The notes below the pieces were generated by a model, which was not told the origin of the DNA, did not search any database, and was given only the letters and a program-made list of their open reading frames with translations. 64,000 nt of DNA from Telmatactis stephensoni (taxonomy: Eukaryota; Cnidaria; Anthozoa; Actiniaria; Isophelliidae): the NCBI GenBank assembly GCA_029948255.1, contig JALIZF010001720.1:15001-79000 (forward strand). Reading direction: 5' to 3'. Positions 1,910 to 63,986 of this stretch are shown here, piece by piece (the first letter of the stretch is position 1; each line of letters begins with the position of its first letter). The position numbers and the translations under genes were made by a program.

Positions 1910-2266
1910 CTTCAATAAGAATCATGCAGTATTCTGCATGAAATCCCGAGCTGTTGTGAGCCTGATTTGAACGAAACACGAACACCAAATCACTTGTTGA
2001 ATTAACCTGAAACGACTCCAGCATGTCCAGACTACCACGGTAAGCCTCCACTAGTTCCAAACTATTACTTGTTGATCTGTAATACTCCAGTACGTCAGTG
2101 TCGCTACCATTCTCAACGGCGAGTGAAAAACTTGTAAAGTTCACGTGAATGGTGTGATTGGCAGGAGCGTGAATCTTCCACGAACAAAGCTGTCCATTCG
2201 GGTAATTATCAGGAAATCGAGGAGACTGGAATTTACCATTCGGACCAACCAACGTCTTGTTACAAC
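1910..2266 (-). CDS. Gene A exon: CUB domain
   Basis: 357 bp, phase 1-1, from GCNKTL to the GTAAGA donor. CUB hallmarks are FQSPRFPDNYPNG, C-W-I at the second Cys, NFTSFSLAVENG and GFHAEY. It carries three residues (DML) not found in the other copies and several N-x-S/T sites. The other copies continue to a membrane exon within 420 bp; none is seen here. Confidence 0.88.
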
Positions 2267-5200
2267 CTAAGAACAATAAATTATTATGTTCGGTTATTGT
2301 AAGGGGGAGTGTGTTTCTTTCAAGGTGTGTAGGTTGATGCGCTCTCAAGAAACTCCCTCCAAAGTACTTCGTTCTAAAAGATACATTGGCCTAAATGAAG
2401 TAATTAGAGAAGTTGCATCCCCAAAATTTACAATTTGAATAGGTGTGTTGGACAATAAAGTAATCGAAATAAAACTCCAGTGCTGTGCTGGAAAGCTGCT
2501 ACAGCAAACAGCTAAAGTGGTGGTAAATCTGTTCTACTTAACACTGTATCAATGCTGCTCTATAATTTAGCCCATCTGCCCATTGAAAAGGGGTAAGAAA
2601 CAGGAAAAAACGCTGCAAACTTGCGCAATAGTTTAACCACTTTTATTCAAGCGACCATAATACTAAGAGGGCGAAACTGGTATTGATGCATGTCAGCGTG
2701 ATGTGCTTGGCGCTTAAGCTTGTTTTTGGCTTATAGCTAGAAGTTGACACTAGATCGCGCGCACAAACAATGAATTTCATTTCCGGCCGAAAAATGGTCC
2801 ACAGCGCGCGTAAAAAAGCTGCTACTCACTTTCATAATAACAATAAAACACAGTAAGACCCTTATGACTTTTAGAGCCAGCTTCAGTGTAAGGATCTGCC
2901 TCAGAATTCCACATAAGTTTCTTAACATTATTTGTGCCATATTTGATCCATTCACTAGTGGCTACCATCCACTTAACTTGTTGACACTCAGTAGAACCAT
3001 AAGGTAGTAGGTAGAAGGGATGTGTTATAGGAAGATCAATAGCTTGGCTTTTCACTCCAGTTGTTTTGCAGAAAACAGAAATATCAATATAAGTATCTGA
3101 TATTATAATCCCGTTTTTATGTTTTAAGCTACATGCTAAAATTCCATTTTCCCGCCCGTTGTTGTAATTCATCATAATCCAGCCATACTCCATACCAGTT
3201 GGTAATGGTTTTCTTTCTTGGTAGATACAGTACTGACCTGAAAAAACAACACTTTTCAATTACCCATTATGAATCTGATAGAAGACATCTTGAACAAGCT
3301 TACTATGCGAGAGAGTCCCCATTTATACGATTACCATTAGTAATGTCAGTGTAGCGAAAGTTTTAGATTTTACACGCACCGTCTGGCCATTGAATAGATG
3401 TCCTGTTTGTTTTCGTACAAAAAGACCTGACCACGTAAGTGTTCGTAACATACCCATCGATGTGTAGTACCGCTGACCGGGTGTTTTTCACATCATTAAC
3501 TGTATCTTGGATGAGCCATCCATTATCAACCCATTGTGAAGGACATCCTGAGGCAGGCTTGAGAAGGGAGTAGGTTCCTTCTGGCCAAGACCATATTTCC
3601 CCTGTGAAAACATAACGAAGAATTATAGTAGCAATAATACACGCGGAGATGTTGGTGGTCTGGTGGTCCACGCATGCACAGTAACTTGTGTCGCGTTGCA
3701 GGCGAAGCGAAATCAGTAATAAACTAAACGCACGGCTTTTTTCAGCAACAATGTTAATTGAATTAGCTATATATCACAAAAATATCAAAATTTTAACAAT
3801 TTGATCATATTAAAAGATCACATTATAAAAAAACATGTCAATATCTACAATTATTTTACTATAAACCATAATTCTTAAATAACAGTAATAATAATAGTAA
3901 AACTAGACTATAAGTGAACAAATTATTCTAAAAATTGCTTGAGTCTTGCTTTAAATATCTCAAGAGATTCAGCAGGTTTTATTTCTCCAGGGAGCGAATT
4001 CCACAGGTTTGCGCCGTGGTAAGATAATTTTCTCTTGCCCGCTTCAGTGCGGGGGAGTGGCAAGGCAAAATTATGTTGTACACTTCTTAGTCCATATTGA
4101 TGTATAGATGATGTTGTTTTCAACTTTTGAATTAAGTAATCTGGTGGCAAGTGAGACCGAACTTTATACATTAAAGTGGCCTCCTGCATAAAACAATTAT
4201 CTTTCTCGCAGCCAATAAGCTTGAGGGCCTCAGTTGATGATGAGTCATACCACCCTAGCTCATTAAAATTTTGGCTGCTTGATTTCTGATTTTGCGGGAT
4301 CTGAATTTTGCCTTGCAGTCCCGTTTACTTGTTTCCACCCAGGTGGAATATAATTGAGCCTGGCGTGGGATGCAGTGCACCAATCACATCATTAGATGTT
4401 GCAGACCTCTGAGGAAATGTGCTTTCTCAAATTCTTATCCGTTCTCTTATAGTCCATGAGCCAAGACGATTTTTGGTACCACCTGAGATGGCAAAGGCTA
4501 TTATACATCAAATTAAAGCTTATCTTGAGTACATTCCAAAAATATATGATAGCAATACCAGAATGGTAGCTGAAGGATGTCACGTGACCTCAAAGTTTGG
4601 GCAGTTATGTAAATTAGTGTAAATCTCATACATTTAAAAAAATTCGAAATATACTGGTTTTCTTGTATTTCCTAATGTAAATCTTTTAAACATGATCAAG
4701 GGTGTTCAATAAGTTCAATCTAGGTGATTATCTGTGCTTTAAGTTTACTAAAATCACGTGACTATGACGTCAAAATTGACGATTCCAATAAATCAGGTTG
4801 AATAAACAGTAAATATATATTTTTATCGGACATTTTCTTGGACTTTTTCTCTCTTCCACTATACAAGCGTCACTGACAAGACTGCTTGAGAAAGTTTCAA
4901 GCTTTTTTGGACTTAGAACTTTTTTCTCACATTTTGAATGTCCTGTATAAATTGAAAACCGGAAGTGTTTTTTGGTACTTCCGGTTAATTTTCAAAAAAA
5001 CAGTTAAACCTCCCGTAACACCCTCATGAAACCCAAAAAGTGTCCATAAGTAGAGATGTCCGCTTATAAGAAACATTCTACTTAGCGGACGTTTGCTGAA
5101 AATGGTTTCTGTGGCCACTAACGAGAACATTTGGTGTCAAAAATCATTGAATACATGTTAATCGAACGATTAATTGAAGCAAGAGCTATGGCAAGACCAT

Positions 5201-8200: not shown

Positions 8201-9922
8201 ATTAACTAATTTATGTACTAGAACATTGATAAGAATTCGAAAAAAATTGTATTTGTTCGGAACCGGAAGTACCAAAAACACACTTCCAGTTTTCAAAATA
8301 CGACCAAAACGTGAGGAAAAACATTCCAAATTCCAAAAGGAGCTTGAAACTTTCTCAAGCAGTCTTGTTAGTGATGTTTGTACAGTGGAAGAGAGAAAAC
8401 GTCCAAGAAAATGTCCGATAAAAATATATATTTACTGTTTATTCAACCTGATTTATTGGAATCGTCAATTTTGACGTCATAGTCACGTGATTTTAGTAAA
8501 CTTAAAGCACAGATAATCACCTAGATTGAACTTATTGAACACCCTTGATCATGTTTAAAAGATTTACATTAGGAAATACAAGAAAACCAGTACATTTCGA
8601 ATTTTTTCAAATGTATGAGATTTACACTAATTTACATAACTTCCCAAACTTTGAGGTCACGTGATACCCTTCAGCTACCATTCTGGCATTGCTATCATAT
8701 ATTTTTGGAATGTACTCAAGATAAGCTTTAATTTGATGTATGATAGCCTTTGCCATCTCAGGTGGTACCAATCGGCCATTTTTTGGCACTTGGCTCATGG
8801 ACTATTATCTGTTGTTCGAAGGCCACAGAAAGATGAGCTTGGAATACCTGTGTTCTTATTAGTAATGCTGCCTGTACCACAGGCAGCCCAGGTTCTGCAG
8901 CTCCTGAACATTATTTATGGCTTCGCAATTGCATTCAAAATCAATGGTGAAATGGAAGGTCGTGGGTTTGAATCCCCAATGGATTCGCTCAACTTTTTTT
9001 ATCCACTATTTTTTAATACTGATTTCTTTGCACATATACATCTCTTTTATCAATAAATTTTGATTTTTAAAGTTGTATTTTAATTTCTTCTCCCTTAAAA
9101 ATAAAAACGTTGTGAGCTGAATCCATTGGAGATTTGGATCTGTAACCTTCCATTTCGAATGCAATCGCAAAGCAATTATGTTCAGGAGCTGAACCTAGGC
9201 TGCCAGCTGTGGGTTCTGATGCGAGATTTGCTACTTCGTCGACACAAAAAAGGTAACATGAACCCATGAAAGTCTATTACCTTGATTGAGACTTATGTGA
9301 AGCTGCTATAACACAATGACTGCATTTATTGTGCAGTTTAAGTTACTAAACATCCCTGACTCGTGAAATTAAATATGACATGTTTTGCTCAGAAAGCGCG
9401 AGATCGACTAATTATTTATTTTGTTACAAGAAACTTTTGCACGAGCTTGATATGTGGCCTTCAGCGACTAGTGGCCAAGCGTTCTTTCGATCCCTGCTAC
9501 TATGTAAAACAAACCTAACAACAAAGGAAACAATTAAATATGATATCTGCTACAAAAAGAACGTTTCTGCAGTTCTTCATTTTTCTAGATCTCAAATATC
9601 ATAAAACTTTGGATTGAACGAAATTTGGATTGAACAAAATAACCCGTGCCCAGTCTTGGGGTAACAACCTCCGTTGCACCGTTCTGTTGTTAGTTTAGTT
9701 TGACTTTTTTTATTAGCTATTGTGATGTCATTCACAGGTTCTTCTTACACCGAGGCTTCGCCCCGTCTTGATTACTGAAAACGAGGGAAAGTTCCACTGC
9801 AACTATTTGTATAATTGTACTTGAAGAATTTCAATTCTGCGCTTATACGTACCTGCATTACAGCTGGTTCTTGTAAGAACTACAATAAACAAGCACAAAA
9901 TACACTGACGTTTTATGAACAT
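1910..9922 (-). CDS. Gene A: ApeC-CUB protein of the tandem family, lacking the WSC-like exon (3' end not found)
   Basis: Minus-strand split gene with exons 9853-9922 (signal peptide), 3380-3601 (ApeC part 1), 2830-3237 (ApeC part 2) and 1910-2266 (CUB). All borders are GT/AG and all introns are phase 1, so joining signal peptide to ApeC keeps the frame. The WSC-like exon present in B, C and D is not seen anywhere in the 6.2 kb first intron, which is filled by inverted repeats and LINE fragments. The stalk/membrane exon lies 250-420 bp past CUB in the other copies, but none is visible in 1-1909. The product could be secreted, could continue beyond the window, or the locus could be a truncated gene. 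By family it should be a secreted or surface ApeC lectin-like recognition protein. Exons read cleanly with no stops. Confidence 0.72.
2830..3237 (-). CDS. Gene A exon: ApeC domain, part 2
   Basis: 408 bp, phase 1-1. It opens with GQYCIYQ, followed by a variable segment, then the conserved core FCKTTGVKSQAIDLPITHPF, then the YLLPYG and C-x-x-V-K-W motifs, and closes with FYCYYES. The paired YCIY/FCKT/FYCYY cysteine pattern matches the C-terminal half of ApeC domains. Confidence 0.85.
3380..3601 (-). CDS. Gene A exon: ApeC domain, part 1
   Basis: 222 bp, phase 1-1. It encodes the first half of the apextrin C-terminal domain: WSWPEGTYSLLKPASGCP, then a D-T-V-N-D-V-K-N-T run, a HIDG motif and FCTKT, ending in WPDG. 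The start WP.GTY.L.KP..GCP is the ApeC signature. The donor is GTGCGT. Confidence 0.82.
3920..4275 (-). mobile_element. LINE 3' fragment (reverse transcriptase C-terminus)
   Basis: Encodes YGLRSVQHNFALPLPRTEAG and YHGANLWNSLPGEIKPAESL, the tail typical of non-LTR retrotransposon reverse transcriptases (CR1/L2-like). Upstream residues NELGWYDSSSTEALKL extend it. Dead 5'-truncated copy in the intron of gene A. Confidence 0.7.
4449..4990. repeat. Left arm of a large inverted repeat in gene A intron
   Basis: Reverse-complement match to 8257-8815, from the sequence ATAGTCCATGAGCC through to a hairpin-like CCGGAAGTG...CACTTCCGG end. The arms differ by scattered substitutions and a small insertion. 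Confidence 0.85.
6002..6505. mobile_element. TIR element, about 500 bp
   Basis: About 65 bp near-perfect terminal inverted repeats, 6002-6068 and 6441-6505, starting ATCGGCCCTAAAAATCC. No transposase is visible, so this is a non-autonomous element. Confidence 0.75.
6505..6900 (+). mobile_element. LINE 3' end with AAAT tail
   Basis: Encodes LLEPFKKKLKSFFYKRLT and CPKCRRLNIFTSCTC then a stop, followed by a 3' UTR ending in an (AAAT)n tail. This is typical of a 5'-truncated non-LTR retrotransposon. Confidence 0.6.
8257..8815. repeat. Right arm of the large inverted repeat in gene A intron
   Basis: Inverted partner of 4449-4990. The 3.3 kb between the arms holds a TIR element, a LINE tail and unassigned DNA. 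Confidence 0.85.
8876..9215. repeat. Inverted pair of tRNA-like SINE fragments
   Basis: 8876-8992 and 9105-9215 are inverted copies sharing GGCAGCC..GGTTC, CTCCTGAACAT and CCAATGGATTC. The plus copy has a B-box-like GGTTTGAATCC. Confidence 0.55.
9853..9922 (-). CDS. Gene A exon 1: signal peptide
   Basis: ATG at 9922 followed by a basic stretch and a hydrophobic core (CILCLFIVVLT) over 23 codons, ending in a GTACGT donor, phase 1. It is nearly identical in sequence to the first exons of genes B and C but one codon shorter. The ATG was chosen because the paralogues share it. Confidence 0.75.
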
Positions 9923-11870: not shown

Positions 11871-13050
11871 TCAATCATGTGTCAACACAGCTTCAGTAAA
11901 CAAGGATTGCTTTTCTATAACAGGCTTGTTATAAAACTTGTGGAATGTTTCCGCAGAAGCCCAACCAATGGTATTCAAAATAACGTCAACAGGAACATCT
12001 TTCTCCTTTGCTTTTGATGCTGCAGCAGCTCTAGTGCTATGAGTTGTAAAATGCTGTGTATCAATTCCAGAGTTTTTCAACACCTCTTTTGCCCATCTAG
12101 AAATTGTATCTCTAGACACTGCGCGAAATGGCTTAACAAAGCTCACAAATTAAGAGCTTTTCCTCGTTGTTCCGTAAAGATTCTGTTCTATGTATATATT
12201 CCTTCAAGGTGTTAAATGGGCATATAGCTTGATAGCTTTGTTTGGTTTAAAAGCTGTCACTCTTATTGGTTCTGATTTCTTATTAGGTTTTCTAGTTTTT
12301 GTATGTTCATGTACATTAAAAATATATACGTCATGCCTTTGCTTGTAGGTCTGATAGTGTTAGTAAGTAGATAACTTGTCCCCTCTGTCCTGTTGCAAGT
12401 AAGAGCAGCATGACAGTCTTTAGTGTAAGTCCCTTCAATGATAGCTTGTTTAAAGGGTTTAAGCTTTGCAAATAATTGAGGACTTTGGAAGCATCCCAGA
12501 TAGAGGTATATTTAGGTTTTGGCTTACGAGATTCAAATATACCTTTCATGAACCTTGTTGTTAGTGGATGTGCACCAAAGTGATCGCAGTGGTCAATTTT
12601 AAGGATTGCTGATAGAGCTGATCTAGCCGTATATCTTGAATAGCTAAGTCCCTTAGTATAGAGTGACATAAGGAAATCCATTGCTTCATTTATTTTTGGG
12701 GAACTGTGATTGACTTTCCTTTTATCACAAAATTCCAGCCATTGGTTGATGTATGTTGTGTACTGTTTCTTAGTTCCGTCACGCCATGATGCCATGAGAA
12801 TTCTTGTAACGTCTTCTGAAATTTCATACTGTCGGAAGGATTGCCTGAGAGCGGACAGACCATTAAGTGGAGTTTCCTGTGCAGTGGATGTAATGTCTGG
12901 CAGTGGTGTTGAAGAAGTGTTGTTGACGGTTTGTATATCCAGGGCTGGTTGGAGAGCAGTTGCAGAACTAGGGGAAACCATGTTTGAGTGGGCCATACTG
13001 GCACTATCAGTAAACCTTTTGCTTTGTCCTGTATAATTTTCTGTAGACAA
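11871..13050 (-). pseudogene. DIRS tyrosine recombinase, frameshifted
   Basis: 12331-13050 carries SWRDGTKKQYTTYINQWLEF and the first catalytic Arg in LLATGQRG. 11871-12146 carries HSTRAAAASKA (HxxR) and IGWASAETFHKFYNK with the nucleophile Tyr. Between them the reading passes through three frames with stops near 12330, 12205 and 12150, although all catalytic residues survive. Confidence 0.8.
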
Positions 13051-20173: not shown

Positions 20174-20483
20174 TTATCCCTTAATGGTCTGGTACATTTG
20201 GTCGTCATTCACTGGTTCACAATCAGGTCCCTCTAGGGTCTGGTAAACAGGACCATCATTTTGTGCACAGGACGTAGCTGTATCACGGTCAGTTTGATAC
20301 TCGGTTTTGATTGGCTGAGCTGATGATCTCTTAAGGGGTTCATATTGTTCTGAAATATCGTGCTTGGGCAGGATATTTCGGTTCAACCTTTGGTAGCCTT
20401 GGTCGTTCTCTCCATCTGTTTGACCAATATTTGTATTGACTATTGGTATGCTGTTGAAATTGGTCATTGGAATGGTCTCTGGT
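20174..20483 (-). CDS. Gene B exon 9: tyrosine-motif tail and stop
   Basis: 310 bp, enters in phase 2, stop TAA at 20174-20176. Tyrosine motifs in order: GYQRL, QYEPL, EYQTD, VYQTL and MYQTI. YQRL/YEPL and YQTL/YQTI are each separated by 13 residues, just beyond the canonical ITAM spacer. Confidence 0.82.
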
Positions 20484-42350: not shown

Positions 42351-42639
42351 TCAGTTATCAGTTGTATGGTACTTTATATCGTCATCTACTGGCTGGTAAG
42401 TAGGCTCGGGTTCCTCTGGTGTTTGGTAAACAGGTTCATCATCTTGGTCATTTTGGCGCTGAGTTTTGATTGGCTGCGATGATCTATTTCGTTGGTCATA
42501 CTGTCCAGGTACATCGTGCTTGGGTAGGACATTACAACTCAACTTTTCGTAGCCTTGGTCGTTCTCTTCATTTGTTTCACCTGTTGCTGTGTTCAGCATC
42601 GTTGAGCTGCTGAAATGGGTCATTGGAATTGCTTCTGGA
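42351..42639 (-). CDS. Gene C exon 9: degraded tyrosine tail and stop
   Basis: 289 bp, enters in phase 2, stop at 42351. Motifs are GYEKL, QYDQR, VYQTP, TYQPV and KYHTT. The first YxxL and a YxxV remain, while the YEPL and terminal YxxI positions of B and D are lost. Confidence 0.8.
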
Positions 42640-48600: not shown

Positions 48601-51600
48601 AAATGCTTGGATGGCTCGTTCATGTTGGACTTGCGACGATTTTTGTTGCTTGACGACAGCGACAAAGTACATTCAGAAAGGTTTTCATATCAGAGTATCG
48701 AACAGCTCAACGGAGATGCGATGAAAATTAGTAAAATTATTCCAAGCTGCATGAGGGAGCTGAGAGTAGTTCAATACAAAATGTGGCAAGGAATAAAAAG
48801 TTACACCATTCCTAGGCTCTGATAAGTGATTAGGATTTTTCTAAGGTCAAATCCTGGTAATGACATTTTTTCCTGTTGAAAGAGCCAGTTTGCCAGTTTT
48901 CAAAGGCAACATTGACTAACATGGCCATTTTGACGGCCATATTTATTCTCGATTGGAGTGTGGGAACGAGTTTACTGGAAAGTGAGTGAACATTTGCACA
49001 TTCGTCCCCCCACAATAACCCGTGGATTTGCAATCTACGAGTTAAAAAAGTTCGTTTTCACGCTAGATGGCAGTAATCTTGATCATGTTTGAGGCAGTGC
49101 CCCAATAATTTTCGAAAACGGAAAATCGAACAAAAGGCATCGGCCCGTCATTTACATCAAGTCATTGTCAGCATTGAAACGTTGAAGAAATTCTATCTTT
49201 TACACATAAAAATATAACCTCAAAAATGTACAAGAAAATTTAAGTGTCGTAAAAAGTTAGAGATATTTCGACACCAGTACATACATACCCTCTATTGGCT
49301 TTAAAACAACTTTCTACGTTAAGTATTCGAAAATATCTCGAAAGTGGAACCAAGATTTTTGTTAAAATTGAAATATCTGATACGTTACCATACTTTTGTG
49401 GATTTGATAATATAAAAACAATAGGTCACCGTGTTGGTTTTTGGGCTACAGCTCGCTAAAGTACGAATTTTGTCCTCAAATAGGCCTTGGTAGAGAGAGA
49501 AGTAGGGCGAGTTTAGACGAAAAAGTAAAGAAAAAGCCGACATCTTTTTCAGTTTTCTCAAAAGCTCTTACGTTCCTGTGTGAGCCAAAAAATTCGAATC
49601 CGAATGGGTCGAGAAGAACCAATGACCAAGCTCATGCCTTGGCCATTTAGAGCAGAAATGTTGTCTGCATGAGGCTGTGAGAAAAGAAAAAACAAGCGCC
49701 AAAGCGAGAATATGACCCTCCTTACGTTTTTTTTATTCATACTAGATCGTAGGCTTCTCTATGCAGGCTTCTTGCAATTAGGATGGCGATTATGAACCAG
49801 ACATGAGGGATTATTAACAACGGAGCGCAAGACCTGTACGTGAAAACATAAGACCGAGACCTTCCAGTTTCCGAGCAAGAGAGGTTAATAAATCGTTTGC
49901 CTATTTCAATTTGTCAGTTTTAGATAATTGATGAGTCACACGACATTATTAGGTATATTAAACGCAGCATTTGCTGTAGGTCGCAAACTGCTTTTAGCTC
50001 TGTCAAGGTATCATAATTGAAAAGGGGACCTTGATTATAATAATATTTGACGCACCTTCTGGCCATTGTAGAGATGTTGTCTTTGTTTTTGTACAAAACG
50101 ACCTGACCACGTCATTACTCCTAACATAACCATTGATGTGTAACACTGCTGACCGGTTGTTTTTTACATTATCAATTGTATCTTGGATGAGCCATCCATT
50201 ATCTTCCCATTGTGAAGGACATCCTGAAGAAGGCTTGAGAAGGGAGTAGGTTCCTTCTGGCCAAGACCAAACTTCTCCTGTAAAGTTAAATTATGAATAA
50301 TTATCATTGGATTGTTGGACGATGTTTGATGATGCCCGGATCAATGAAGTCAGCAAAGAAGCAAAGAGAGGCAAATAGGGAAGGAAGGCAGGAAGGAATG
50401 AAAGGGAGGAAGGAAGGAAGGAAGGACCGGAAGGCAGGAAGGAAGCAAGCAAGCAAGCAAATAATGAAAGAAGAAAGAATGCAGGAGCTGAAAGTTCTAT
50501 TAACTAGTTTTTACAATACGTAGATGTGGTTTTGGAAATTAAACTAGTCTACACCATCTGGCTCCGGTAACATGAAGGATGGATAGCGGTCTTATCTACT
50601 GGATAAACGATGACGGCGTTTTCCAGTAAATGTATCAACTAGAGAAGGTTTTCCCCAACGGATAGCGCTATTCAACCATCGTGCAACTGGAACCGAATTA
50701 ATAAAACAACTGTATCTTGGATGACCCATCCATTATCAACCAATTGTGAAGGACATCTTGAGACAGGCGTGAGAAGGGAGTAGGTTCCTTTTGGCCAAAG
50801 AATTCCGTCTTCAAAAAGATTAAGAATTTAGGTCGAGATTAAAAGTAATTGTACGTAGAGGTAGGAAGCGGTAGAGTGAATTTATTTAACCCGCAAAAAA
50901 TGCGATTGCTTAGTGAATACACTAGTCGTTAAAGCTCATATGACGCAATGGTTACCGCATTAGTGCCGTAGCAGTAGCAGCAACATAATTGGTGGTAGTA
51001 GAAGTGTACTGTGCAAATCAACAACAGCATCAATAATAATCAAATCCTTAACGTGATACTTTGATAGTTCAAAAGCTTTACCTTGTTTCTGACATTTAAT
51101 ATTTTGGCTTACCTGTAAACTGATAAACATTATTAGCCCCTAATCCTCCAACTCCATTTCTGCAGGCTGTAGATTTTCCATGTTTACCATACGTTTTGTC
51201 TGCAGTAGGACCACTCCAGCAGTTAATCCAATGTAGATCGTTCTCCCAATGTTGAACAGCAAAAGTGCTGTATCCTTCTCTTTCAGCTTTTTCAGCACAT
51301 TGCTCTACTTTGTGCATGACATCAAATACAAAACCTAGATTTTCAGGTAAAGCTCTATCCCCCTTTTTATCCTTGTAGCAACCAATATGCTTATATTGCT
51401 GTTCTAAAATACAAACAATAACGAACAATTTTACTTGTTTATTTATTTATTTTTTGTTTATTTATTTGTTTGTTTGTTCGTTCGTTTCATTTATAAATTT
51501 GAAAAAACTAACACATTTGTTGATAAACTAGTACTAAAAGCGTGGATATGCATGGTCACAATTCTTGGCGGATCAAATTCAATCGGTGAGTTAATTACGT

Positions 51601-53065: not shown

Positions 53066-55292
53066 AAGAAAGAAAGAAAGAAAGAAAGAAATACATGCAG
53101 TATGCGGAGTTTTAATTTCGGGGAAAGGGATTAAAAAGGCTCAAGTTCTATAACTTATGTACAAATTTTAGCAAATTAAAGATATTCCCAAATCGACGGA
53201 ATCTCGCGTTTAAAACTTGTCTTGACTAACGTTATCGTTTGAATTAAATTAGTGTCATACGAACGAGCGTGATTTGAATACACTACCAGCAAATAACAAC
53301 AACAACAAAAACAACAACAACAAGCCTTCATATATATTTCGCTCGCGGATTGTTTCTAGTTGTTGCTTGAAGTGCGACATTGTTTTTTGAAATAAGTCTA
53401 TTCACTAATACATGAAAGTTTCCATAGACTGGAAGTTATATTACGTATCTATACTAAGTATTATCAAACTCATTAATAATTAGTCGGGCGGCTAGCCCGA
53501 CTTTAGTTCTACCTTTTGGTCTTCTGTCACGTCGCGTTTAGTCCTCCCATGATGCTTTACGAACTCGACAACAGGGATCCCATTCATGTCTTACGATAGC
53601 CACATGTCGATCGAACTTCGAGAAGGGAGCGAAGGGAAGATATATGTTTACAAGACTTTTATAGAAGATGTCGAAGAAATTACTTGCTATAAAGACGCTC
53701 AAATCACATACAAATGCACACACCGTCCGCGATAGACCCACACTAAAAGATGTCTATGAGCGTACATTTCGACCCGGGTTGTTTCAAGGACTGTCTAACA
53801 TGTTGAACATGTCTACTTGTGTCTAATATGGAAAACAAGCTAAAACGAGTTCTCACTAGTTCACACCAGATCGATGATGATCATAGCAAAAATATTACAA
53901 ATGACAGTGACAAAAATGAAAGTCACAAAATGCTAAGTGATATTTTTTCGAGAGGGCAATGTTCTGTTACGGGTCATTTTGCGTGTTACTGTTCGAATCG
54001 AAGCTCGTCTACGGGCCCAATCAATTCAAGCCAAGATAATAAGTATAAAGTGAGGTCGCACTGAGAATCTCTGCAATATATTTGGTTACCCTATGAAAGA
54101 AAATTTTATACTTTGTATGTGATGGAATTGTATTTATCATTCGTTTCATCTAAAGCGTCAAATACAGTAGACAATGCGTTATCTTTGACCGTGATGCAAC
54201 TAGCTTTTTAAAATCAGTTAGTTTTATAATCATTGCCGCCAACGCTAGCCGTTTGTGATTGTTTGAAAAATTGCTTTTACTCAAAGTGCTAAATATTTTA
54301 AACAGTCATAGTGTGTGTCCGACACTGATCCTGGAGAATTATGTTTTGTAGTTCAACATTGAAGGTCAACTAGCAATGTTCGTCACACAACGCACAAGAG
54401 ATAGACAAGAAACATTTCATATATCAGAGAAAGCGGTGTACTTTCGTGAGTTTTAGGGGAACAGTTCTGCTAACGTGGATACACCAGCTGTTTTCTGCTC
54501 GCAGCACTTAACTTTCTATTAGAAATGAACCATAGCAGTTATCTCACGTCGCAAGTGTTTATCTTCGCGCTGCAAACACATACAATTTTACGCTCAAGTA
54601 GCCCGACTTCACGCTTCATTAGCGTCTAGTTCATTAGAAAACACAATGGAAATCACTACCGGAACGTAGATCTTTATATCGGATAAAGATTTTTGTGTAT
54701 TTGCATAAACTTTAACTTGGATTTTCTAAGTCAAAAGTAGTCAAACTTGGAAAATTCTGGTCCAATATGATAATTGACAACTAGACGTTTGATAAGTAAT
54801 ATAAAGAACTCGAGAGCGTGTTATATCGGGTCTAAAGATCCTCGCCTTCGGCTCGGATCTTTATCCACCGATATAACACGCTCTCTCGTTCTTTATACAT
54901 TACGTAACATGGCCTAAGCGACTAGTACAAGCGTTCTTTCAATTTCTGTTACACTTTTTTATCATGAAATTATGACAACCAAGGAAATAAATACAAAAAT
55001 GACAAACTGCTTCAACTTCTTCTAGAAAATGGCAGTTTCATCCTGTTTTCAGTCATGCGAAAAATACTTGAATTGAAAAAGATCACTAAGCTCTCAATAT
55101 AATTAATTACTGACGAAATAAAATTCCTCATACATTGGTTAGTCGACAGTCAATTATGGGGGAAGCTCCACTGCAGCTATTTGTACATTGCACGGGAATA
55201 ATAATTGAGTTCTACTTACCTGTATTACAGCTGGTAATTCTTGTAAGAACTACAATAAACAAGCACAAAATACAATGAAGTTTGGTGAACAT
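42351..55292 (-). CDS. Gene C: complete WSC-like/ApeC/CUB type I membrane receptor
   Basis: Nine exons on the minus strand: 55220-55292, 51113-51403, 50056-50277, 47836-48243, 46063-46410, 45505-45640, 43791-43829, 43648-43704 and 42351-42639. They sum to 1863 nt, giving 620 residues without stops. Layout: signal peptide 1-24, WSC-like 25-121, ApeC 122-331, CUB 332-447, short stalk and membrane helix 448-492, tail to 620. The tail keeps NPIY and GYEKL, but the later motifs have drifted (YDQR, YQTP, YQPV, YHTT). Intron 1 (3.8 kb) and the ApeC intron (1.8 kb) hold repeats and one relic ApeC exon. It is probably a surface recognition protein with altered signalling compared with B and D. Confidence 0.85.
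42751..42972. mobile_element. Short TIR element just upstream of gene C's last exon
   Basis: Ends ATATATCGGGTGCATTATGA / TCATAACGCACCCGATATAC. Confidence 0.65.
43648..43829 (-). CDS. Gene C exons 7 and 8: juxtamembrane tail with NPxY
   Basis: Exon 43791-43829 (39 bp) encodes LSSRLNTEEHHS. Exon 43648-43704 (57 bp) encodes NDPDNEQAVVHVNPIYGR. NPIY keeps the PTB/clathrin motif. Both exons are phase 2-2 with GT/AG borders. Confidence 0.74.
44342..44527. repeat. Inverted repeat in gene C intron
   Basis: Arms share CTTGAAAGGTAGCCGTGCCT and GTGAGCTTGCAATGATAGA in inverse orientation. Confidence 0.75.
44868..44939 (-). repeat. tRNA-derived SINE fragment
   Basis: On the minus strand GTGGCTGAGCGGTGAGAGCG (A-box region) is followed by CCCGGGTTCGATTTCCGG (B-box). 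It lacks a complete cloverleaf, so a SINE head is likelier than a tRNA gene. Confidence 0.55.
45505..45640 (-). CDS. Gene C exon 6: short stalk and transmembrane helix
   Basis: 136 bp, phase 1 to 2. The stalk is only about 20 residues, then TALLIVIPLVCFILVLVVV and IDIIYRYR. It lacks most of the Ser/Thr-rich stalk seen in B. Confidence 0.78.
46063..46410 (-). CDS. Gene C exon 5: CUB domain
   Basis: 348 bp, phase 1-1. GCNKTLAGPNGKFQSPRFP, LCSWKIKVP, NFTSFSLAVENG and SGFHAEY. Confidence 0.88.
46749..46990. repeat. Probable degenerate foldback MITE in the gene C intron
   Basis: Left end AAAGGTGCTTTCACACGG with later GCAACGATTGTAGCAACTCG. It resembles the TTACAC-type foldbacks elsewhere but the right boundary is unclear. 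Confidence 0.4.
47068..47210. repeat. Palindromic foldback in gene C intron
   Basis: Inverted arms CACTTATTGACTGGGACC and GGTTTTGTGGTC, centre CCGAGGCGGAGCCGAGG. Confidence 0.85.
47836..48243 (-). CDS. Gene C exon 4: ApeC domain, part 2
   Basis: 408 bp, phase 1-1. It contains QYCIYKEGS and DGWIIMDDEWPD, then the shared core SGVKSQAIDLPITHPFYLLP, C-x-x-V-K-W and FYCYYES. Confidence 0.85.
48260..50040. other. Long ApeC intron of gene C, no gene recognised
   Basis: A 94-codon plus-strand frame at 48538-48822 has no recognisable domain and no family counterpart. Confidence 0.4.
50056..50277 (-). CDS. Gene C exon 3: ApeC domain, part 1
   Basis: 222 bp, phase 1-1. EVWSWPEGTYSLLKPSSGCP, DNGWLIQDTIDNVKNNRS, HINGYV, SFCTKT and LQWPE, then a GTGCGT donor. 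The frame is set by paralogy. Confidence 0.8.
50707..50808 (-). pseudogene. Relic ApeC part 1 exon inside gene C
   Basis: Encodes LWPKGTYSLLTPVSRCP and then NGWVIQDTV, matching the first half of the ApeC part 1 exon, preceded by an intact-looking AG. The second half and the donor are missing. It lies in the intron 430 bp upstream of the real exon, so it is a truncated duplicate. Confidence 0.8.
51113..51403 (-). CDS. Gene C exon 2: WSC-like Cys-rich domain
   Basis: 291 bp, phase 1-1. QYKHIGCYKDKKGDRALP, FAVQHW, NCWSGPTADKTYGKHGKS, TACRNGVGG and ANNVYQFTG. The Trp before the final motif (WAN in B and D) is replaced (GAN). Confidence 0.8.
53020..53092. repeat. (GAAA)n microsatellite
   Basis: Purine tetranucleotide tract in intron 1 of gene C. 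Confidence 0.9.
54796..54903. repeat. Short foldback in gene C intron 1
   Basis: Inverted ends GTAATATAAAGAACTCGAGA with a GCCTTCGGC centre. Confidence 0.8.
55220..55292 (-). CDS. Gene C exon 1: signal peptide
   Basis: ATG at 55292, MFTKLHCILCLFIVVLT and a Cys near the end, GTAAGT donor, phase 1. It closely matches A and B. Confidence 0.8.
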
Positions 55293-57908
55293 GTTCAGTG
55301 TTCAGTTGGTAACGATATGTTATTTCTTAAGGTTGATTTCTCCTCGAGTCTCGTACTGATTCGGGTTGTTCTGACGACTACCGAAAGTGAAGGTATTATA
55401 CATTCCTTATTAACATTGTCCAGCTGAAAAAGACTACAGGAAATGTCATGTGTCTCATTGAATAATCTTTTCTCGTGTGAATATTGTTGTTGCTCGTGGA
55501 ATTCAAAGCTTCCGTGACAAAAAAAGTAAAACAACAACAAAGCTTCTTTGGGTACTTTTGCAGAGCGTCAGGGGGTGTGGGAAAGGTTTGTAAATGTACA
55601 AGACGCCATGGACCCGTGAGGATACGAAAAAATTGCCGAAAGACTGAATGTATACTAGAATGAATGAGACAGGTGATATCTCTAGTAGTATGAGAGTACA
55701 TGAGAGACCTCGTCTTGCGGACTGAGCTTGTCAAGGGTTGTGTTTCAGCGAATGAAGAGAAGACTTTCATGTCGTCTCGGATAGACTGAAACTGAAGACT
55801 CATATCAGAAACGTAAATGAATAGTTTTCTGGGTCTTCAACATTCATGTAGTCACGTGACCGTCTCACTGGCAAGGACGAAATCTTCCAAGTCGACACAC
55901 CCTAGATGTCTTTCTATCTCGACGACGTTAATGACATTGGCTGTATTCGTCCAATTGTTGGGGGGAATGCGTCTAAAGTAATGCGAAAGTAAGTCTTCAA
56001 GTACAAGATCGCGATCTGTTGATTTTCCGTAATCTCGAGACCTATCTATAAAGCTGTAGCACCACTATATATTGGCACTTAAAGTGCTGTTAAGTAACCT
56101 TCCAGTACATTTTTTTCCATATGATATTGAATATAGAATAATTGCCTAGATTTTTAGGCATGGTTATGTGGCCCTCATTTTCGTGATAACAACCATTATG
56201 TTTATATTCAGTTACAGCTGACTACCAAAATCATTATCATAATTCATCGAGCGCAAAACCGGGTAAGAAAGGATTTAGAGTAAAGTTGAGTCTCCCATGC
56301 CACGATTTCTGTTCGAAATGGCACGAGTTTTATTCTGAAAATAACAACAACAAAAACGTAAAAAAGTAACTGAATAAATTAAACATCTTTTTGCAAATAT
56401 GAGGATAGGAAATTTGGTTTCTACTCGAGGAAAAAGAAGAGCTGATCAATATAGTATGACCTCCTGAAATAGCAAACCTATTTTTAGGTTTAGGCCAGAC
56501 AGACAGAAGAAACAACCATAATCTGTTAATTAAATGTAACGCATTTTATTATACACAAATAAACTACAAAAAATATCAAAAGTATGAAATTGAAATTATA
56601 GTGTCGCGTAACACTAATTAAATAAAAAATATATATGTCTAAAAACAAATGGAAAATAAACCTTCCATGTTAAAACTAAGAATTGTTATTCTGATATATA
56701 TTTATGTATAAGTATTGACACGTACAAGAAAGGTTTGATCCCAAGGCATGCTGAAGGGTCATTTTCACAACCAGAACACACGAGGGAGGAATTTCTTTTT
56801 TATTTATTTATTTATTTATTTTGCAATTTGCTTCCACGTAAAGATTATAACAATGAAATCGTTGATACACACCAGAGCTTTTCCCCAGGAAAAGTAACCC
56901 TTCGAGCAAGGACCTTTAGAAACATGAATGTTATTTCTACTTCTAATGTTATAACAGCAGAATATAATCAGACTAAGACTGAGACTCCGCGCGCGCCCTT
57001 ATAAAAAACTTCAGCAGCCGAATTTGATTTTGCCGAATTTGCGCGCTCTGATTGGTCGAGATTCGTGTGAGATTACAGTACACATGCACAATGCGTAATA
57101 GAATTCGAATCTTACGCGCGCTCTTACCGATTTGTTGAAATGTTTCGGTGAATATTATATTTAACAATTAGATTCCATTTTTTTCCATTTTTTTAATTGA
57201 TGTACAGAAGAAGTCAAAATGTGGTGAAAACAACGGTCAAACCACTCGAATTCGTTTCATGGCACACTTTTTGTTCTCACCACATTGTGACGAGTACGTA
57301 CATCTATTAGAGTACAGACCATGCATTTATATATAGCTACACCCTAATTATTATCGTGTGAAGTTTCGTAAAAATTCCATGTTTGGTTTTATTATATTTC
57401 TACGGAATTACCTTAATTTCATATTGATTATCATCAGGTGTGAGGTTTTAGCTATTTTCTCATTGCCTTCCATGCCTTCCATGCATATTATTTGTAGGTT
57501 AGTTTATTCAGTCTCATTTATACATCAATTCGTTTTTGTTTTATAGTATATCTTTATTGTTGTTCTATATTTATCCCAATCCATTCTTTCGGTTTTTCGT
57601 TATAATTTTTCAAGCGACTGATTTTGAATATTGTCATTACCGTACAGCTCCATGTATATTATTTATATTAGTCTATTTAGTCGTATTTGTACATCAATTC
57701 ACTTTCAATTTGTGTATATAGTTATACAAATAAATATCTTTATCTTTATCTATATCTAAAAAATTATCTTAATACATTCGTTTCATAATTCCACTTGGCA
57801 AGTTCATCGCATTTTGCCCTGTAAAGTTCACGTTTTTTCTCTGTCTCAAGACCTTATTACTGAGCCTGAAAAAAAATTCAAAAGAAAATATATGTGATTA
57901 AACTTTAA
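55293..57908. other. Intergenic, upstream of gene C
   Basis: Should contain the promoter of gene C, but no convincing TATA or other element was fixed. The relic WSC-like exon lies here. Otherwise AT-rich DNA without a recognised gene. Confidence 0.5.
56005..56213 (-). pseudogene. Relic WSC-like exon between genes C and D
   Basis: Minus-strand pieces read EYKHNGCYHENEGHITMPKN (56141-56213) and, after an unalignable gap and a frame change, YSFIDRSRDYGKSTD (about 56013-56062). They line up with YKHIGCYK...RALPENLG and CYSGLKADQTYSRYGKS of the intact copies. It lies upstream of gene C's first exon and is probably debris of a lost family member. Confidence 0.68.
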
Positions 57909-59024: not shown

Positions 59025-59325
59025 TTATCCCAGAATTGTGAGGTACATTTGGTCGTCATTCATTGGTTCATAATCAAGTCTTTCTGGTGTCTGGTCAACA
59101 GGTTCTTCATATTGTAGGGACACCCTTTCATGGTCAGTTTGATGCTCAGTTTTGATTGGCCGAGATGATCTATTCAGAGGCTCATACTGTGTTGATGAGA
59201 GATTTCGGTTTAACTCTTGATAGCCTTGGTTAACGTTATTTTCTTCACGTCTTTCACTAATATTTGTACTTGTATTCACTACTACCGCTGCGCTGTCTAA
59301 ATGAGTTGTAGGAATTTCCACTGAT
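59025..59325 (-). CDS. Gene D last exon: ITAM-like tyrosine tail and stop
   Basis: 301 bp, enters in phase 2, TAA at 59025-59027. Motifs: GYQEL, QYEPL (8 residues after YQEL), QYEEP, DYEPM and MYLTI. YEPM is a PI3K-type YxxM motif. Confidence 0.82.
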
Positions 59326-62300
59326 CTAAAGAATGCAAAAAGGAATTATAAATAGTAACGACAGATTTATTAGTTATCGTTCAATTTATAGGTAAATTAT
59401 ATTAATTGCATCCACAGAGAGTAACTGAAAAGCAGATGTATATATATATATATATATGTTCTGATATTCGATGATAATGATGATGTACCAATAACGAAAA
59501 AGCATATAGGATATAAACATTATAGTATCCATAGACATGTAGCTACAGATAAAAGTTAGTAACATGCGCAGTAACGAAAATACCAAAAAAGAGAATAAAT
59601 TTGATGATAATGATGATGACGGTGATGATCCTGATTATGATACTATGCTGGTGGTGATAACAGTAAACATCCCGATGACCACAACTGAACAAGCCGACAA
59701 CGGTATTTCAAAAGTGACGAGAATGTTACCATGGTTACTTGATGATGATGATGATGATGATGATGATAACATGCGTGCTTACCTGTCACCGTCAGTTGGA
59801 ACAGTAACGGCGTGCTCATTATCACTTCGATTACAATACAGGTAAAAACAAATTAATAACAACGAAGTAAAAATCACCAGCAAGTAGTGGTATGTTTTGT
59901 TAGAAGTTTAATTTTTAATACCTTGGATCATCTCTCTGACTCTTCAATCGAGAATTCAGTCTGTTGAAACATCAAAATCAACAAAAATGGCAAATGAAGC
60001 TAGTTTGAATTTGAGGGACTAGTTATACAAATCGAGTGTAAAGGTGGTAGGAGTAACCGGGACTACCATAACAAGCTGATTAATCACATTGTATTACAAA
60101 TCGACCTAAATGTCTTGCTGTAGTTTGACTGTTTCTAATCAGATTTGACAGTCGACGTTTTTTGGAAAATGATCGTCAGTCTGGTGTAATCTGATTTGTC
60201 AATTTTGCGTAGGTGGTCCCCCTTACCTATATGCGCACTGTAATCGGACAAAGTGAGAGTTGTCATACGATGTCAAGGACGCTTGTCAAGGTGTAGAATA
60301 TAGAATGTAGTGAGTAGTGTGGAGGGCGTACAATTAATACTGTGCAAGAACGGATCCAGGATTTTCTTCAGGGAGAGGTGCACCCGGATTATTTTTCAGG
60401 GGGGTGCAGTGTTATAGAAATTGGAAACCATCCATAGGGTATTTTGGAAAAATATACAGAAAACAGGGCCCAAAGTCGTCTTAGGAGGGGGTGCGCACCC
60501 CCTGCACCCCTCCCCTAAATCTGCTCCTGCTGTATACTTGACGGTAGAATGGAGCGAACAAGGCATGTATGTAAAGTATGTATAGAGTTTGTAATTAGAA
60601 GGGAAGTATTCTCAGCCCACGTTGACAATATGTTTAGTCTTACTGACCTGCAGCGATAAATAATGTCGATGATAACGACCACTACAAGTATAAAACAGAC
60701 CAGCGGTATTGCTATGAGTAAAATAGTTGTTGAATTGGTTGATTGATGGGGTGTTGCTTGTGTTTCAACATCATCAGCATTCAGTGTTGGGTTCTCTGTG
60801 GTGGGCTCTAGATCTGATTGAGAAGAAAAGTACTGAACATATTATCAATCTGTAAATATAAATTGAACTCTTAACGGTAATGACTTTAATTATTGGACGT
60901 AGGGACTTTTAGTTGTATTGTTGAGATGTGTTTTTTCCAACCTATTGATTTCATTCTGTCAAGGACCCTCAGTCAAAGCAAAACTTATACCGGAAAATCG
61001 GTCCAAAGGTATTCAGTTTAACCCCCTGAGTTTGAAAATCTACGATTTAGGACATTAGTTTTGTAACCTTTCATCAGACTTATAACATGGAATTATATAA
61101 ATCGAAAAACATAAAGAAACAACAAATATCGTTGTACATGCCAAAAGACAAACAAACAAACAACCAATCAATCAAACAAACAAACAGCAATGTACCAAAC
61201 GAGCATTGGCTATAATATTTTAATCTCACCTTTATTAAGAATAATTTGATACTCTGCGTGAAATCCCAAACTGTTGTGAACGTGATTCGAACGAAACACG
61301 AACACCAAATCACTTGTTGAAATAACCTGAAACGACTCCAGACTACCACGGTAAGCCTTCACTAGTTCCAAACTATCATTTGTTGATCTGTAATACTCCA
61401 GTACGTCAGTTTCGTTACCATTCTCAACGGCGAGTGAAAAACTTGTAAAGTTCACGTGAATGGTGTGATTGGCAGGAACCTGAATCTTCCACGAGCAAAG
61501 CTGTCCATCCGGGTACTTATCAGGAAAGCGAGGGGACTGGAATTTACCATTCGGACCAACCATGGCCAACGTCTTGTTACAACCTAAGAACAATAACTTT
61601 TAAAGTTAAAGTTCGGCGAAAGTTAAGGTGAAGTGTGTTTGTTTCGGAGTGTGGATTGAGCGTCCTTATCCACTCCCTCCACCGGTACTCCGTTCTACGG
61701 TAATTAAAGTTTACTTAGACGTAATCAACGTAGTAGATGAGGTGGAAAAGGCTACTCCCTTAACAGCCTAATTTCATTCAAAAGCTTTGATCATAAGTGT
61801 ATTGGTTGATGAAGTAATCGAAATAAAACTCCAATCAGTTAGCGGTGCTACAAAGTTGCTACACCACAGCAAACACTATTAATAGTGATGTTTCTACTTA
61901 GTTTGCAGTACTTACTTTCATAATAACAGTAAAACATAGTAAGTCCCTTTTGACTTTTAGAGCCAACTTCAGTGTAAGGAACTGTTCCACCTTTCGTCCA
62001 TCTTTGATCTTTGTGGTTGAGTGTACTGTATTGGATCCATTCACTTGTGGCTACCATCCACTTAACTTGTTGACACTCAGCAGAACCATAAGGTAGTAGG
62101 TAGAAGGGATGTGTTATAGGAAGATCAATAGTTTGGCTTTTTACTCCAGTTGTTTTGCAAAAAAAGGAAATTTTAAGGTCGTACGCGTCATGACCAGATT
62201 TTTGTATCCCGTTTTTATGTTTTAACCTTAAAACTGGATATCCATTTCGCCAGCTGTTATCCATTTTAATCCAGCCATCCTTCATATCAGTTGGTGTAGT

Positions 62301-63986
62301 GCTTCCTTCTTTGTAGATACAGTATTGACCTTTATAAAATATTTGAGATATAACGCGCGCGCTGATTGGTTGGCTACCATGTTTATATCAGAGGACAGAG
62401 ACATGGCTCGCTCAAAAAACGTCGAAAATATTTCATAAAAGCAATATAAAACGATCGCTTATGTCTCTGTACTGTGATATAAACACTCTGGAAGATGTAA
62501 GTAGAGCACTCGAAAAGCAAGAAAAACACTCGGCTATACGCCTCGTGTTCCCTAAGCTTGCTTTTCTCTTGCACTACATCTTCCATCGTGTTTATATCAC
62601 AGTACAGAGACATGCGCGCGCGTTTTACATTCCTTAAGAAACAACATTGTTGATTTACAACTAGCTTGTTATCAATTGAAGAGAAATCAGTCTTCATTTA
62701 ATGTCGTTCCCATCAGTAACCAGTAAAAGTTAACTTGTCACGTACCTTTTGGCCAATGAAGAGATGTCTTCTTTGTTTTTGTACAAAATGACCTGAGAAC
62801 GTAACTTCTTGTGACGTACCCATCGATGTGTAGCACCGCTGACCGGTTATTTTTAACATTAGCAACTGTATGTTGGACGACCCATCCATTATCGACCCAC
62901 TGTGAAGGGCATCCTGAGGTAGGCTTGAGAAGGGAGTAGGTTCCTTCAGGCCAAGACCAGATTTCTCCTATGGAATGTGAAGAATAAAAGCAATAGCACT
63001 CGCAGAGGTGTGTATATATGATCTTATGCAGGTTATCACTTACTTACGGTACGTCGTAGAGTATACTGGCGGTCAGTATATTTGGGTATCATGGTAGTAA
63101 TTGGTGGCCATATATGTTGTGCAGATATGGTGTTTTTTAATTTGGTAGCAACATCATCAAAAGCATAGATGCATGCACGCAGCAGCAGCAACAGCAGTGG
63201 GAGCTGCAGCAGCAGCAGTGGCGATGGTGTTAGTAAAGTGCAGTGCAAACCAGCAAGGGAATGAAAGCCGAATTCGTAACGTGAATGTTTATCCTACAGT
63301 AGTTCAAAGTTTAAGGTTGTTGCTCAGATTTGATATTATATAATAGACCCTTGCAGGAACTGGTCACGTGACACGTCATCAAAATATCAACAGTATCGTA
63401 ATGACAAAATGGTTGACATATTAAGAAGGAGCATCCTTAAATTGGTACTTTTACCAAGTTTGAGCCTTCTTCGATATATTGGAAAAGATTTATATTTTTT
63501 GAAATTGCAATATTTTTACAAAGGCTACATGACTGACGGCATGCCAAGGTTTTCAAAAACTTCTTTCCTTGAATCATTACAATCAAAAACACGTACACAT
63601 GAAAAAACCTAGGGTGCTTTTTCTAATGCTGCTGTCCATTTTGTCATCAGAGCTGATATCTCTGTGTCTTGTGTCACGTGACCAGATCCTGCAAAGGGCC
63701 TATTAGCCTACCCTACCTATAAATTGATAAACATCATTAGCCCAAGGTCCTCCAACTCCATTTCTACAGGCTGTAAATTTTCCATGTTTACCATATGTTT
63801 TGTATGCAGTAGGACCACTCCAGCATTCATTCGAATTTTGAACAGCAAAAGTGTTGTATCCTTTTTGGTCAGCTTTGGATGCACATTCTTCAATAGGATT
63901 ACCCCTCTTGACCAAGCCAAGACGAGTCGACATGGCCCTATAGTTCCCATTATCTTTGTAACAGCCAATGTGTTTGTATTGCAGTG
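59025..63986 (-). CDS. Gene D: WSC-like/ApeC/CUB type I membrane receptor with ITAM-like tail (5' partial)
   Basis: Exons on the minus strand: 63717-63986, 62746-62967, 61916-62329, 61230-61583, 60648-60807, 59922-59960, 59783-59824 and 59025-59325. The signal-peptide exon should lie beyond 64000. The modules match B and C. The tail holds YQEL-x8-YEPL, which fits the canonical ITAM spacing, and a distal YEPM...YLTI pair. The NPxY of B and C is gone, and the acceptor of that small exon is altered; an in-frame substitute AG was used here. By domains it should recognise extracellular, possibly microbial, ligands and could recruit SH2-domain kinases; this is inference. Confidence 0.82.
59783..59960 (-). 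CDS. Gene D exons: juxtamembrane tail, NPxY lost
   Basis: Exon 59922-59960 (39 bp) encodes LNSRLKSQRDDP. Exon 59783-59824 encodes DNEHAVTVPTDGD. At the acceptor used by B (ATAG), D has ATTG. The nearest downstream AG restores frame after losing 9 bp. Whether this exon is spliced in is uncertain. Confidence 0.55.
60648..60807 (-). CDS. Gene D exon: stalk and transmembrane helix
   Basis: 160 bp, phase 1 to 2. A Thr-rich stalk of about 28 residues (EPTTENPTLNADD start), then ILLIAIPLVCFILVVVVII and DIIYRCR. Confidence 0.78.
61230..61583 (-). CDS. Gene D exon: CUB domain
   Basis: 354 bp, phase 1-1. GCNKTLAMVGPNGKFQSPRF, LCSWKIQVP, NFTSFSLAVENG and LGFHAEYQIIL. Confidence 0.88.
61916..62329 (-). 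CDS. Gene D exon: ApeC domain, part 2
   Basis: 414 bp, phase 1-1, two codons longer than in the others because of its variable segment. YCIYKEGS, DGWIKMDNSWRNG, the core TGVKSQTIDLPITHPFYLLP and FYCYYES. Confidence 0.85.
62378..62620. repeat. Foldback cluster in gene D ApeC intron
   Basis: Three copies, one inverted, of a GTTTATATCACAGTACAGAG-like sequence flanked by GCGCGCG. Inner arms share GAAGATGTA and AAAGCAAG. Confidence 0.7.
62746..62967 (-). CDS. Gene D exon: ApeC domain, part 1
   Basis: 222 bp, phase 1-1, GTACGT donor. It opens with EIWSWPEGTYSLLKPTSGCP, followed by DNGWVVQHTV, LHIDGYV, SFCTKTKKTS and HWPK. The frame is set by paralogy. Confidence 0.78.
63342..63705. mobile_element. 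TIR MITE beside the gene D WSC-like exon
   Basis: Ends AATAGACCCTTGCAGGAACT and inverse, with GGTCACGTGACAC inside. Its right end is 11 bp from the splice donor at 63716. It contains a 67-codon plus-strand frame of no known family. Confidence 0.75.
63717..63986 (-). CDS. Gene D exon: WSC-like Cys-rich domain
   Basis: 270 bp, phase 1-1, shorter than in B and C. QYKHIGCYKD, MSTRLGLVKRGNP, NTFAVQNSNECWSGPTAYKT, TACRNGVGG and WANDVYQF. A MITE ends 11 bp beyond its donor. Confidence 0.77.
   Translation of the reverse strand, partial: HCNTNTLAVTKIMGTIGPCRLVLAWSRGVILLKNVHPKLTKKDTTLLLFKIRMNAGVVLLHTKHMVNMENLQPVEMELEDLGLMMFINL

Follow-up and report, generated by a model that had tools for sequence, protein, structure and literature searches.

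A tandem array of candidate WSC-ApeC-CUB membrane receptors with tyrosine-motif tails in an anthozoan

The stretch of DNA analysed here, in its full length of 64,000 nucleotides (hereafter the window), carries a tandem array of four paralogues, A to D, all on the minus strand within 1910-63986 and with exon order and intron phases common to all. Judged by its predicted domain architecture, this array may best be read as coding for single-pass type I engulfment receptors of an anthozoan that bind microbes or corpses, a reading to which we give about an even chance. An earlier note had described a tandem array of four receptor genes of common exon order and phases, and the gene models largely bear this out. 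The observation is mostly real but needs correcting on three points, namely the incompleteness of A, the loss of parts of the tail motif set in C and D, and the claim of diversification, which is unsupported.

The units were located by an exon-peptide search of the window, followed by assignment of splice borders, and profiles of the exon types in six frames found all exons of A to D plus three relic exons. This minus-strand family comprises the only host genes recognised in the window, which has a eukaryotic type of gene structure and a GC content of 33-42%. Signal-peptide exons were searched as hydrophobic starts ending in a phase-1 donor, with paralogy not being a criterion; nevertheless, the top scorer among the 2, 2 and 1 matches upstream of A, B and C was paralogous each time (ILCLFIVVLTR). 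The exons are as follows.

9853..9922, minus strand: A, signal-peptide exon, MFIKRQCILCLFIVVLTRTSCNA (hydrophobic-start search and exon profiles)
3380..3601, minus strand: A, ApeC exon 1 (splice borders, Pfam)
2830..3237, minus strand: A, ApeC exon 2 (splice borders, Pfam)
1910..2266, minus strand: A, CUB exon (Pfam); 1-1909 yielded neither a helix nor a tail exon
30897..30969, minus strand: B, signal-peptide exon (hydrophobic-start search, exon profiles)
28290..28583, minus strand: B, WSC exon (16.2 bits, under the Pfam cut-off; exon profiles)
25035..25253, minus strand: B, ApeC exon 1 (Pfam)
23391..23798, minus strand: B, ApeC exon 2 (Pfam)
22001..22348, minus strand: B, CUB exon (Pfam)
21479..21743, minus strand: B, Thr/Ser-rich stalk and membrane helix exon
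21126..21164, minus strand: B, cytoplasmic mini-exon X1, 39 nt (exon profiles)
20970..21026, minus strand: B, cytoplasmic mini-exon X2, NPTYGGL (exon profiles)
20174..20483, minus strand: B, tail exon with YQRL, YEPL, YQTL, YQTI and stop
55220..55292, minus strand: C, signal-peptide exon (hydrophobic-start search, exon profiles)
51113..51403, minus strand: C, WSC exon (18.6 bits, under the cut-off; predicted fold)
50056..50277, minus strand: C, ApeC exon 1 (Pfam)
47836..48243, minus strand: C, ApeC exon 2 (Pfam)
46063..46410, minus strand: C, CUB exon (Pfam)
45505..45640, minus strand: C, stalk and membrane helix exon
43791..43829, minus strand: C, mini-exon X1 (exon profiles)
43648..43704, minus strand: C, mini-exon X2, NPIY (exon profiles)
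42351..42639, minus strand: C, tail exon with five tyrosines and a single YxxL (YEKL)
63717..63986, minus strand: D, WSC exon (29.6 bits, over the cut-off of 27.8)
62746..62967, minus strand: D, ApeC exon 1 (Pfam)
61916..62329, minus strand: D, ApeC exon 2 (Pfam)
61230..61583, minus strand: D, CUB exon (Pfam; PDB sequence match)
60648..60813, minus strand: D, stalk and membrane helix exon
59922..59960, minus strand: D, mini-exon X1 (exon profiles)
59783..59824, minus strand: D, mini-exon X2, shorter, VPTD, no NPxY (exon profiles)
59025..59325, minus strand: D, tail exon with YQEL-x8-YEPL and YLTI
56138..56206, minus strand: relic WSC exon, first 23 residues (exon profiles)
50708..50797, minus strand: relic ApeC exon 1, 30 residues, 93% DNA identity to A (exon profiles)
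23243..23299, minus strand: relic ApeC exon 2, its end only (exon profiles)

B (670 aa) and C (620 aa) are complete nine-exon genes in the order signal peptide, WSC, two ApeC exons, CUB, stalk plus membrane helix, X1, X2 and tyrosine-rich tail exon. D amounts to 601 aa without its signal peptide, the exon of which would fall past the window end, and A (352 aa within the window) consists of signal-peptide, ApeC and CUB exons only. As exon profiles over the window found no WSC exon between signal peptide and ApeC exon 1 of A, nor a helix or tail exon of this gene, the array consists of three like genes and one partial gene, so that the four receptors of the earlier note hold for B, C and D but not for A. 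The signal peptide and single membrane helix given in that note were recovered, the former as paralogous exons in A, B and C and the latter once each in B, C and D. All modelled introns have gt/ag ends, with phase 1 in the extracellular part and phase 2 from the helix exon to the tail, and in-frame stops are absent from all four final models. A conserved block in the helix-tail intron of B, C and D represents the two further exons X1 and X2, both multiples of three and in phase 2, with X1 measuring 39 nt in all three genes and X2 57, 57 and 42 nt in B, C and D, respectively. Models without X1 and X2 were used in the Pfam scan, three homology searches, some alignments and the first dN/dS run, while the per-exon comparison of synonymous divergence used models including them. 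The relic WSC, ApeC1 and ApeC2 exons indicate that exons of the array have been duplicated and lost.

Several repeats and mobile elements accompany the genes. Between the signal-peptide exon of A and gene B, a DIRS-like retroelement occupies 11871-18353 on the minus strand, with pieces matching PF00078 (reverse transcriptase, E 8e-12) and PF00589 (tyrosine recombinase, E 3e-7) spread over several broken frames. An 868-base inverted repeat at 33403-35290 (arms 33403-34270 and 34423-35290, 97.7% identical) is perhaps a recent fold-back or mobile element. Further inverted pairs are found at 36855-37404/38999-39578 (about 580 bases, 90% identical) and at 4473-4986/8261-8771 (about 515 bases, 94% identical), the latter in the long intron of A where the WSC exon would be expected. 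Additionally, a long simple tandem repeat at 18944-19385 leaves several frames open (RTDG and PSVR repeats).

In the ectodomain, ApeC (PF16977) was detected in all four paralogues with E values of 3e-43 to 2e-49 (148-169 bits at a cut-off of 26.5), and CUB likewise in all four with 7e-20 to 1e-21; hence, the two-exon ApeC and the CUB domain announced by the earlier note are backed by strong Pfam matches. Its label WSC-like stands for D by Pfam (PF01822, 29.6 bits at a cut-off of 27.8 bits) and for C by predicted fold, the best structural matches of which are solved WSC-bearing proteins with Kremen among the matches, but C (18.6 bits) and B (16.2 bits) stay under the cut-off and A has no WSC exon. 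Among solved structures, cubilin is nearest by sequence to the CUB domain of D (E 2.9e-30). The WSC exon of D, compared with PDB sequences up to E 1, gave only an unrelated peptidase (0.58), and for WSC plus ApeC of C nothing better than a staphylococcal inhibitor (E of 0.5 or more) was obtained, so that ApeC has no solved relative by sequence. EMI, EGF-like, kringle and IgSF matches are absent from A to D in Pfam up to E 1.

The three homology searches yielded 14 different proteins (11 from 3800 candidates, 3 from 413 including one repeat, and 12 from 4645 including 11 repeats), 13 of which contain ApeC and 11 ApeC together with CUB. WSC occurs only in P0013 from Paramuricea clavata, which has no ApeC; this protein looks secreted and displays three WSC-like repeats related to the WSC of the window. 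No WSC match was obtained in the ten ApeC-CUB relatives scanned; for the eleventh, the precomputed domain list contains no WSC either. The WSC-ApeC combination was not seen among the 3 matches from 413 word-sharing candidates, which is weak evidence. A membrane helix can be recognised by eye in 9 of the 13 ApeC relatives and is not visible in P0001, P0002, P0004 and P0014, P0002 and P0004 being labelled partial. The search for the same architecture proposed by the earlier note thus succeeded, though without WSC: proteins combining ApeC, CUB, helix and tyrosine tail are also present in Actinia, Nematostella and Desmophyllum and as P0005, P0006 and P0010, which argues against a local artefact. 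The whole frames of P0005 (593 aa) and P0006 (584 aa) lie on sequences of at most 2051 and 1919 bases, respectively. As the genes of the present array contain introns, both sequences were taken to be transcripts. The AlphaFold model of P0005 (mean pLDDT 44, ApeC region about 24-44) is too low in confidence for a statement on the ApeC fold. As side observations, P0001 from Porites evermanni carries repeated ApeC-CUB units in one predicted protein with no helix visible, and P0012 has ApeC and a helix, no CUB, and an NPNY on the N-terminal side of the helix.

In a midpoint-rooted ApeC-CUB tree of 18 rows, A to D form one clade (100/99), which together with five Actinia rows is separate from all others (100/99). 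P0005, P0006 and P0010 cluster with Desmophyllum (97/98) and are therefore called coral-type. B splits off first, though support for a group of A, C and D is moderate and misses the tool's star (87/92). On this branching order, the gain of WSC would predate the separation of B, and A would have lost it again. From the tree, the source would be an anthozoan, probably close to the sea anemones. Two Actinia tenebrosa proteins, P0004 and P0014, share a same-sized longest contig (143445) and close LOC numbers, which suggests an array in Actinia too.

Published accounts of the ApeC domain name eight conserved cysteines as well as DXED motifs, three in number (PMC8361754, PMC9585378). In an alignment of 15 domains (A to D, four Actinia rows, five coral-type rows, Nematostella and P0012), six cysteine columns are kept in every row reaching them. 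Two further columns contain no cysteine in A to D and the four Actinia rows (8/8), while they are filled in all seven others (P0005, P0006, P0011, P0008, P0001, Nematostella and P0012), the eight columns being equated with the published eight by their count. The loose acidic pattern D/E-x-D/E-D/E is likewise missing in all four paralogues and in three of four Actinia rows, with one match in P0004; each coral-type row, of which there are five, has it at one to three separate sites, while P0012 has it twice and Nematostella not at all. By sequence, ApeC of A to D appears to be a divergent subclass and not the canonical eight-cysteine ApeC. Binding of Lys-type peptidoglycan is reported for the ApeC proteins tested from molluscs and amphioxus, and ApeC of the snail protein BgACP1 binds peptidoglycan even with all three DXED motifs mutated (PMC9585378), so that DXED is not a strict requirement. 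Still, transfer of cell-wall or peptidoglycan binding to A-D is weakened by the missing cysteine pair and DXED-like motifs.

The cytoplasmic tails of B, C and D comprise 127-135 residues. Repeated YxxL/I motifs, claimed for all tails by the earlier note, apply to B and D but not to C: B has five, a number reached in 0 of 5000 shuffles, D has three (p 0.009 in shuffles), and C has only one, not above chance (p 0.35). The five motifs of B lie 34 to 136 residues beyond the membrane helix and include two pairs 13 apart, while D contains the pair YQEL-x8-YEPL; canonical ITAM spacing is 6-8. NPxY resides in the separate small exon X2 and was rightly noted for B (NPTY) and C (NPIY), but has been lost in D (VPTD). 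In terms of a tail code, C and D have lost opposite halves. Seven of the nine relatives with a helix had their tails tested, P0009 and P0012 being left out. NPxY is present in six of these seven in up to four copies, above nearly all shuffles. Enrichment of YxxL/I is confined to Actinia P0003 among the seven (5 motifs, p 0.002); the tail of Acropora P0008 is 25 residues long and has no tyrosine.

Overall dN/dS ranges from 0.44 to 0.52 in all six paralogue pairs, pointing to coding constraint and leaving positive selection unsupported. The only value above 1, for the signal peptide of B versus C, stems from 24 codons with one synonymous change and is not meaningful. Hence, the wording "diversifying like immune genes" of the earlier note is not supported, while its membrane recognition receptor family remains the best reading, with an architecture that recurs in other anthozoan proteins. 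Synonymous divergence of the CUB exon is 0.11-0.21 versus 0.30-0.47 for the other exons and lower in 6 of 6 pairs (signal peptide left out; codon shuffling p 0.0005-0.0055). The most diverged exon is WSC in B-C and B-D, and in C-D the tail exon exceeds WSC and ApeC exon 2 is as low in divergence as CUB. From this pattern we infer that the CUB exon has been homogenised between paralogues by gene conversion, with selection on synonymous sites as the alternative.

Since NPxY and YxxL/ITAM motif types are joined in these tails, they would suit a receptor for engulfment or activation, one whose ectodomain is unusual. WSC and ApeC would bind glycan on microbes or damaged cells, and receptor clustering would cause Src-type kinases to phosphorylate the YxxL tyrosines, which in turn could recruit SH2 proteins of the Syk or Shark type. 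NPxY may recruit a PTB adaptor of the GULP/CED-6 type, with the particle being engulfed or a signal being sent as the outcome. Work might be split among paralogues: B carries the two motif types together, C has NPxY but only a single YxxL, and D has the ITAM-spaced pair but no NPxY. Expression would be expected in phagocytes. Several points speak against engulfment: ApeC of A-D lacks two cysteines and DXED-like motifs, C has one YxxL and D no NPxY, A is without helix and tail in the window, the Acropora P0008 tail is tyrosine-free, signs of positive selection are absent, and YxxL and NPxY are short motifs serving plain endocytosis too.

The last point leads to the strongest rival, which we consider a good deal less probable, though serious: NPxY and YxxPhi are clathrin-adaptor signals, so the proteins could be endocytic or scavenger receptors whose CUB and ApeC domains serve the uptake of ligands, soluble or particulate, with no immune signal being sent. 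The presence of NPxY in B and C, its up to four copies in coral-type relatives and the nearness of the D CUB domain to cubilin agree with uptake, but five YxxL/I in B and the x8-spaced pair in D exceed its needs. Developmental or adhesion receptors of the ectoderm, comparable to the role suggested for apextrin in coral metamorphosis or to the CUB receptors Kremen and neuropilin, are unlikely. Acropora apextrin is found in ectoderm before and during metamorphosis (PMC1896004) and the predicted WSC model matches Kremen, but a kringle match is absent up to E 1 and CUB is not nearest to Kremen. Moreover, the tandem arrangement, the relic exons and a WSC that comes and goes among the paralogues better suit a recognition family. 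Self/non-self receptors of a polymorphic, allorecognition-type cluster would also be a tandem family with tyrosine tails, and Hydractinia allorecognition proteins carry ITAM-like motifs. WSC as most diverged exon in two of three pairs (B-C, B-D), with CUB lower in divergence than the rest in all six, fits as well; nevertheless, the lack of an IgSF match up to E 1 and overall dN/dS below 1 in all pairs make this explanation very improbable. Finally, mis-joined exons, with ectodomain and tail from different genes, or decaying pseudogene copies could be suspected from the incomplete A and the relic exons nearby, but are highly improbable given fully open frames and matching phases in B, C and D, dN/dS of 0.44-0.52 and an exon order equal to that of single proteins in other anthozoans.

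Within the favoured engulfment reading, a more specific scenario is offered only tentatively: A-D could be germ-line-encoded anthozoan phagocyte receptors with a derived ApeC, whose loss of a cysteine pair and of acidic motifs might mean a new ligand, a diverging WSC tip, a gene-converted CUB and switching tails, acting in effect as paired receptors that feed the ancient Syk pathway of cnidarians. Receptors with ITAMs that act upstream of Syk have been inferred to be anciently conserved, and Syk/Zap70 homologues are reported only in invertebrates with CARD-CC/Bcl10, cnidarians being among the Bcl10 holders (PMC5978004). The family would provide concrete candidates for such receptors in anthozoans, combining tails that differ between neighbours with a type of domain that binds bacterial cell walls in those members tested so far. 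Microbe recognition by coral and anemone phagocytes, including which microbes or symbionts enter, thereby becomes directly testable. As far as can be told from sequence, A-D may well represent a type of immune receptor that has received little study.

Among known systems, the anthozoan ApeC-CUB proteins are closest, i.e. Actinia tenebrosa LOC116288153 (P0003), Desmophyllum P0011, Nematostella P0007, P0005, P0006 and P0010, all uncharacterised. As in the present array, ApeC and CUB are followed by a stalk, a single helix and a tail in which NPxY, YxxL or both occur, and those that look complete N-terminally start like a signal peptide (by eye). In contrast, coral-type relatives have tandem NPxY tails rather than YxxL, and the cysteine pair is retained in ApeC of the coral-type proteins and of Nematostella. 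No literature on ApeC-CUB membrane receptors with tyrosine tails was found, as judged from titles and beginnings of abstracts, and ApeC does not appear in the main text of PMC6447388; the key survey of the architectures in which ApeC occurs, by Li et al. (2021, Mol Phylogenet Evol), may include them. A stony-coral atlas lists ApeC proteins of an immune cell type among secreted proteins (PMC8162421). Secreted ApeC proteins such as amphioxus ACP1/2/3/5, oyster CgACP1 and snail BgACP1 share the PF16977 domain, but have eight cysteines and no helix or tail in the descriptions cited. Amphioxus ACP5 possesses CUB besides ApeC (PMC8361754) and a lancelet clade combines fucolectin, C-type lectin, CUB and ApeC (PMC12373286), with CUB preceding ApeC in both, unlike here. 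Membership in the Kremen family, with its Kringle-WSC-CUB ectodomain, was rejected, as no kringle match is obtained up to E 1, ApeC lies between WSC and CUB, and CUB scores far better with cubilin.

The tails resemble those of the single-pass receptors CED-1, Draper and MEGF10, which carry NPxY plus YxxL/ITAM (here NPxY in B and C, YxxL in B, C and D). In CED-1, NPXY serves the PTB adaptor CED-6 and YXXL serves Src phosphorylation and an SH2 adaptor; mutants of the NPXY or YXXL tyrosine did not rescue engulfment, and both motifs are cited as partly redundant (PMC9388098). Draper and MEGF10 have NPxY and ITAM, and bacterial lipoteichoic acid is among the ligands of Draper; the ectodomain of CED-1/Draper, however, is composed of EMI and EGF-like domains (PMC8092387) instead of WSC-ApeC-CUB. 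On this comparison, the best reading is that A-D would work like CED-1/Draper/MEGF10 but belong to another family. The combination of ApeC, CUB, helix and tyrosine tail already exists in unnamed proteins of other anthozoans; the novelty of the present array lies in its WSC at the tip, in an ApeC of reduced form and in tails that vary from one neighbouring gene to the next.
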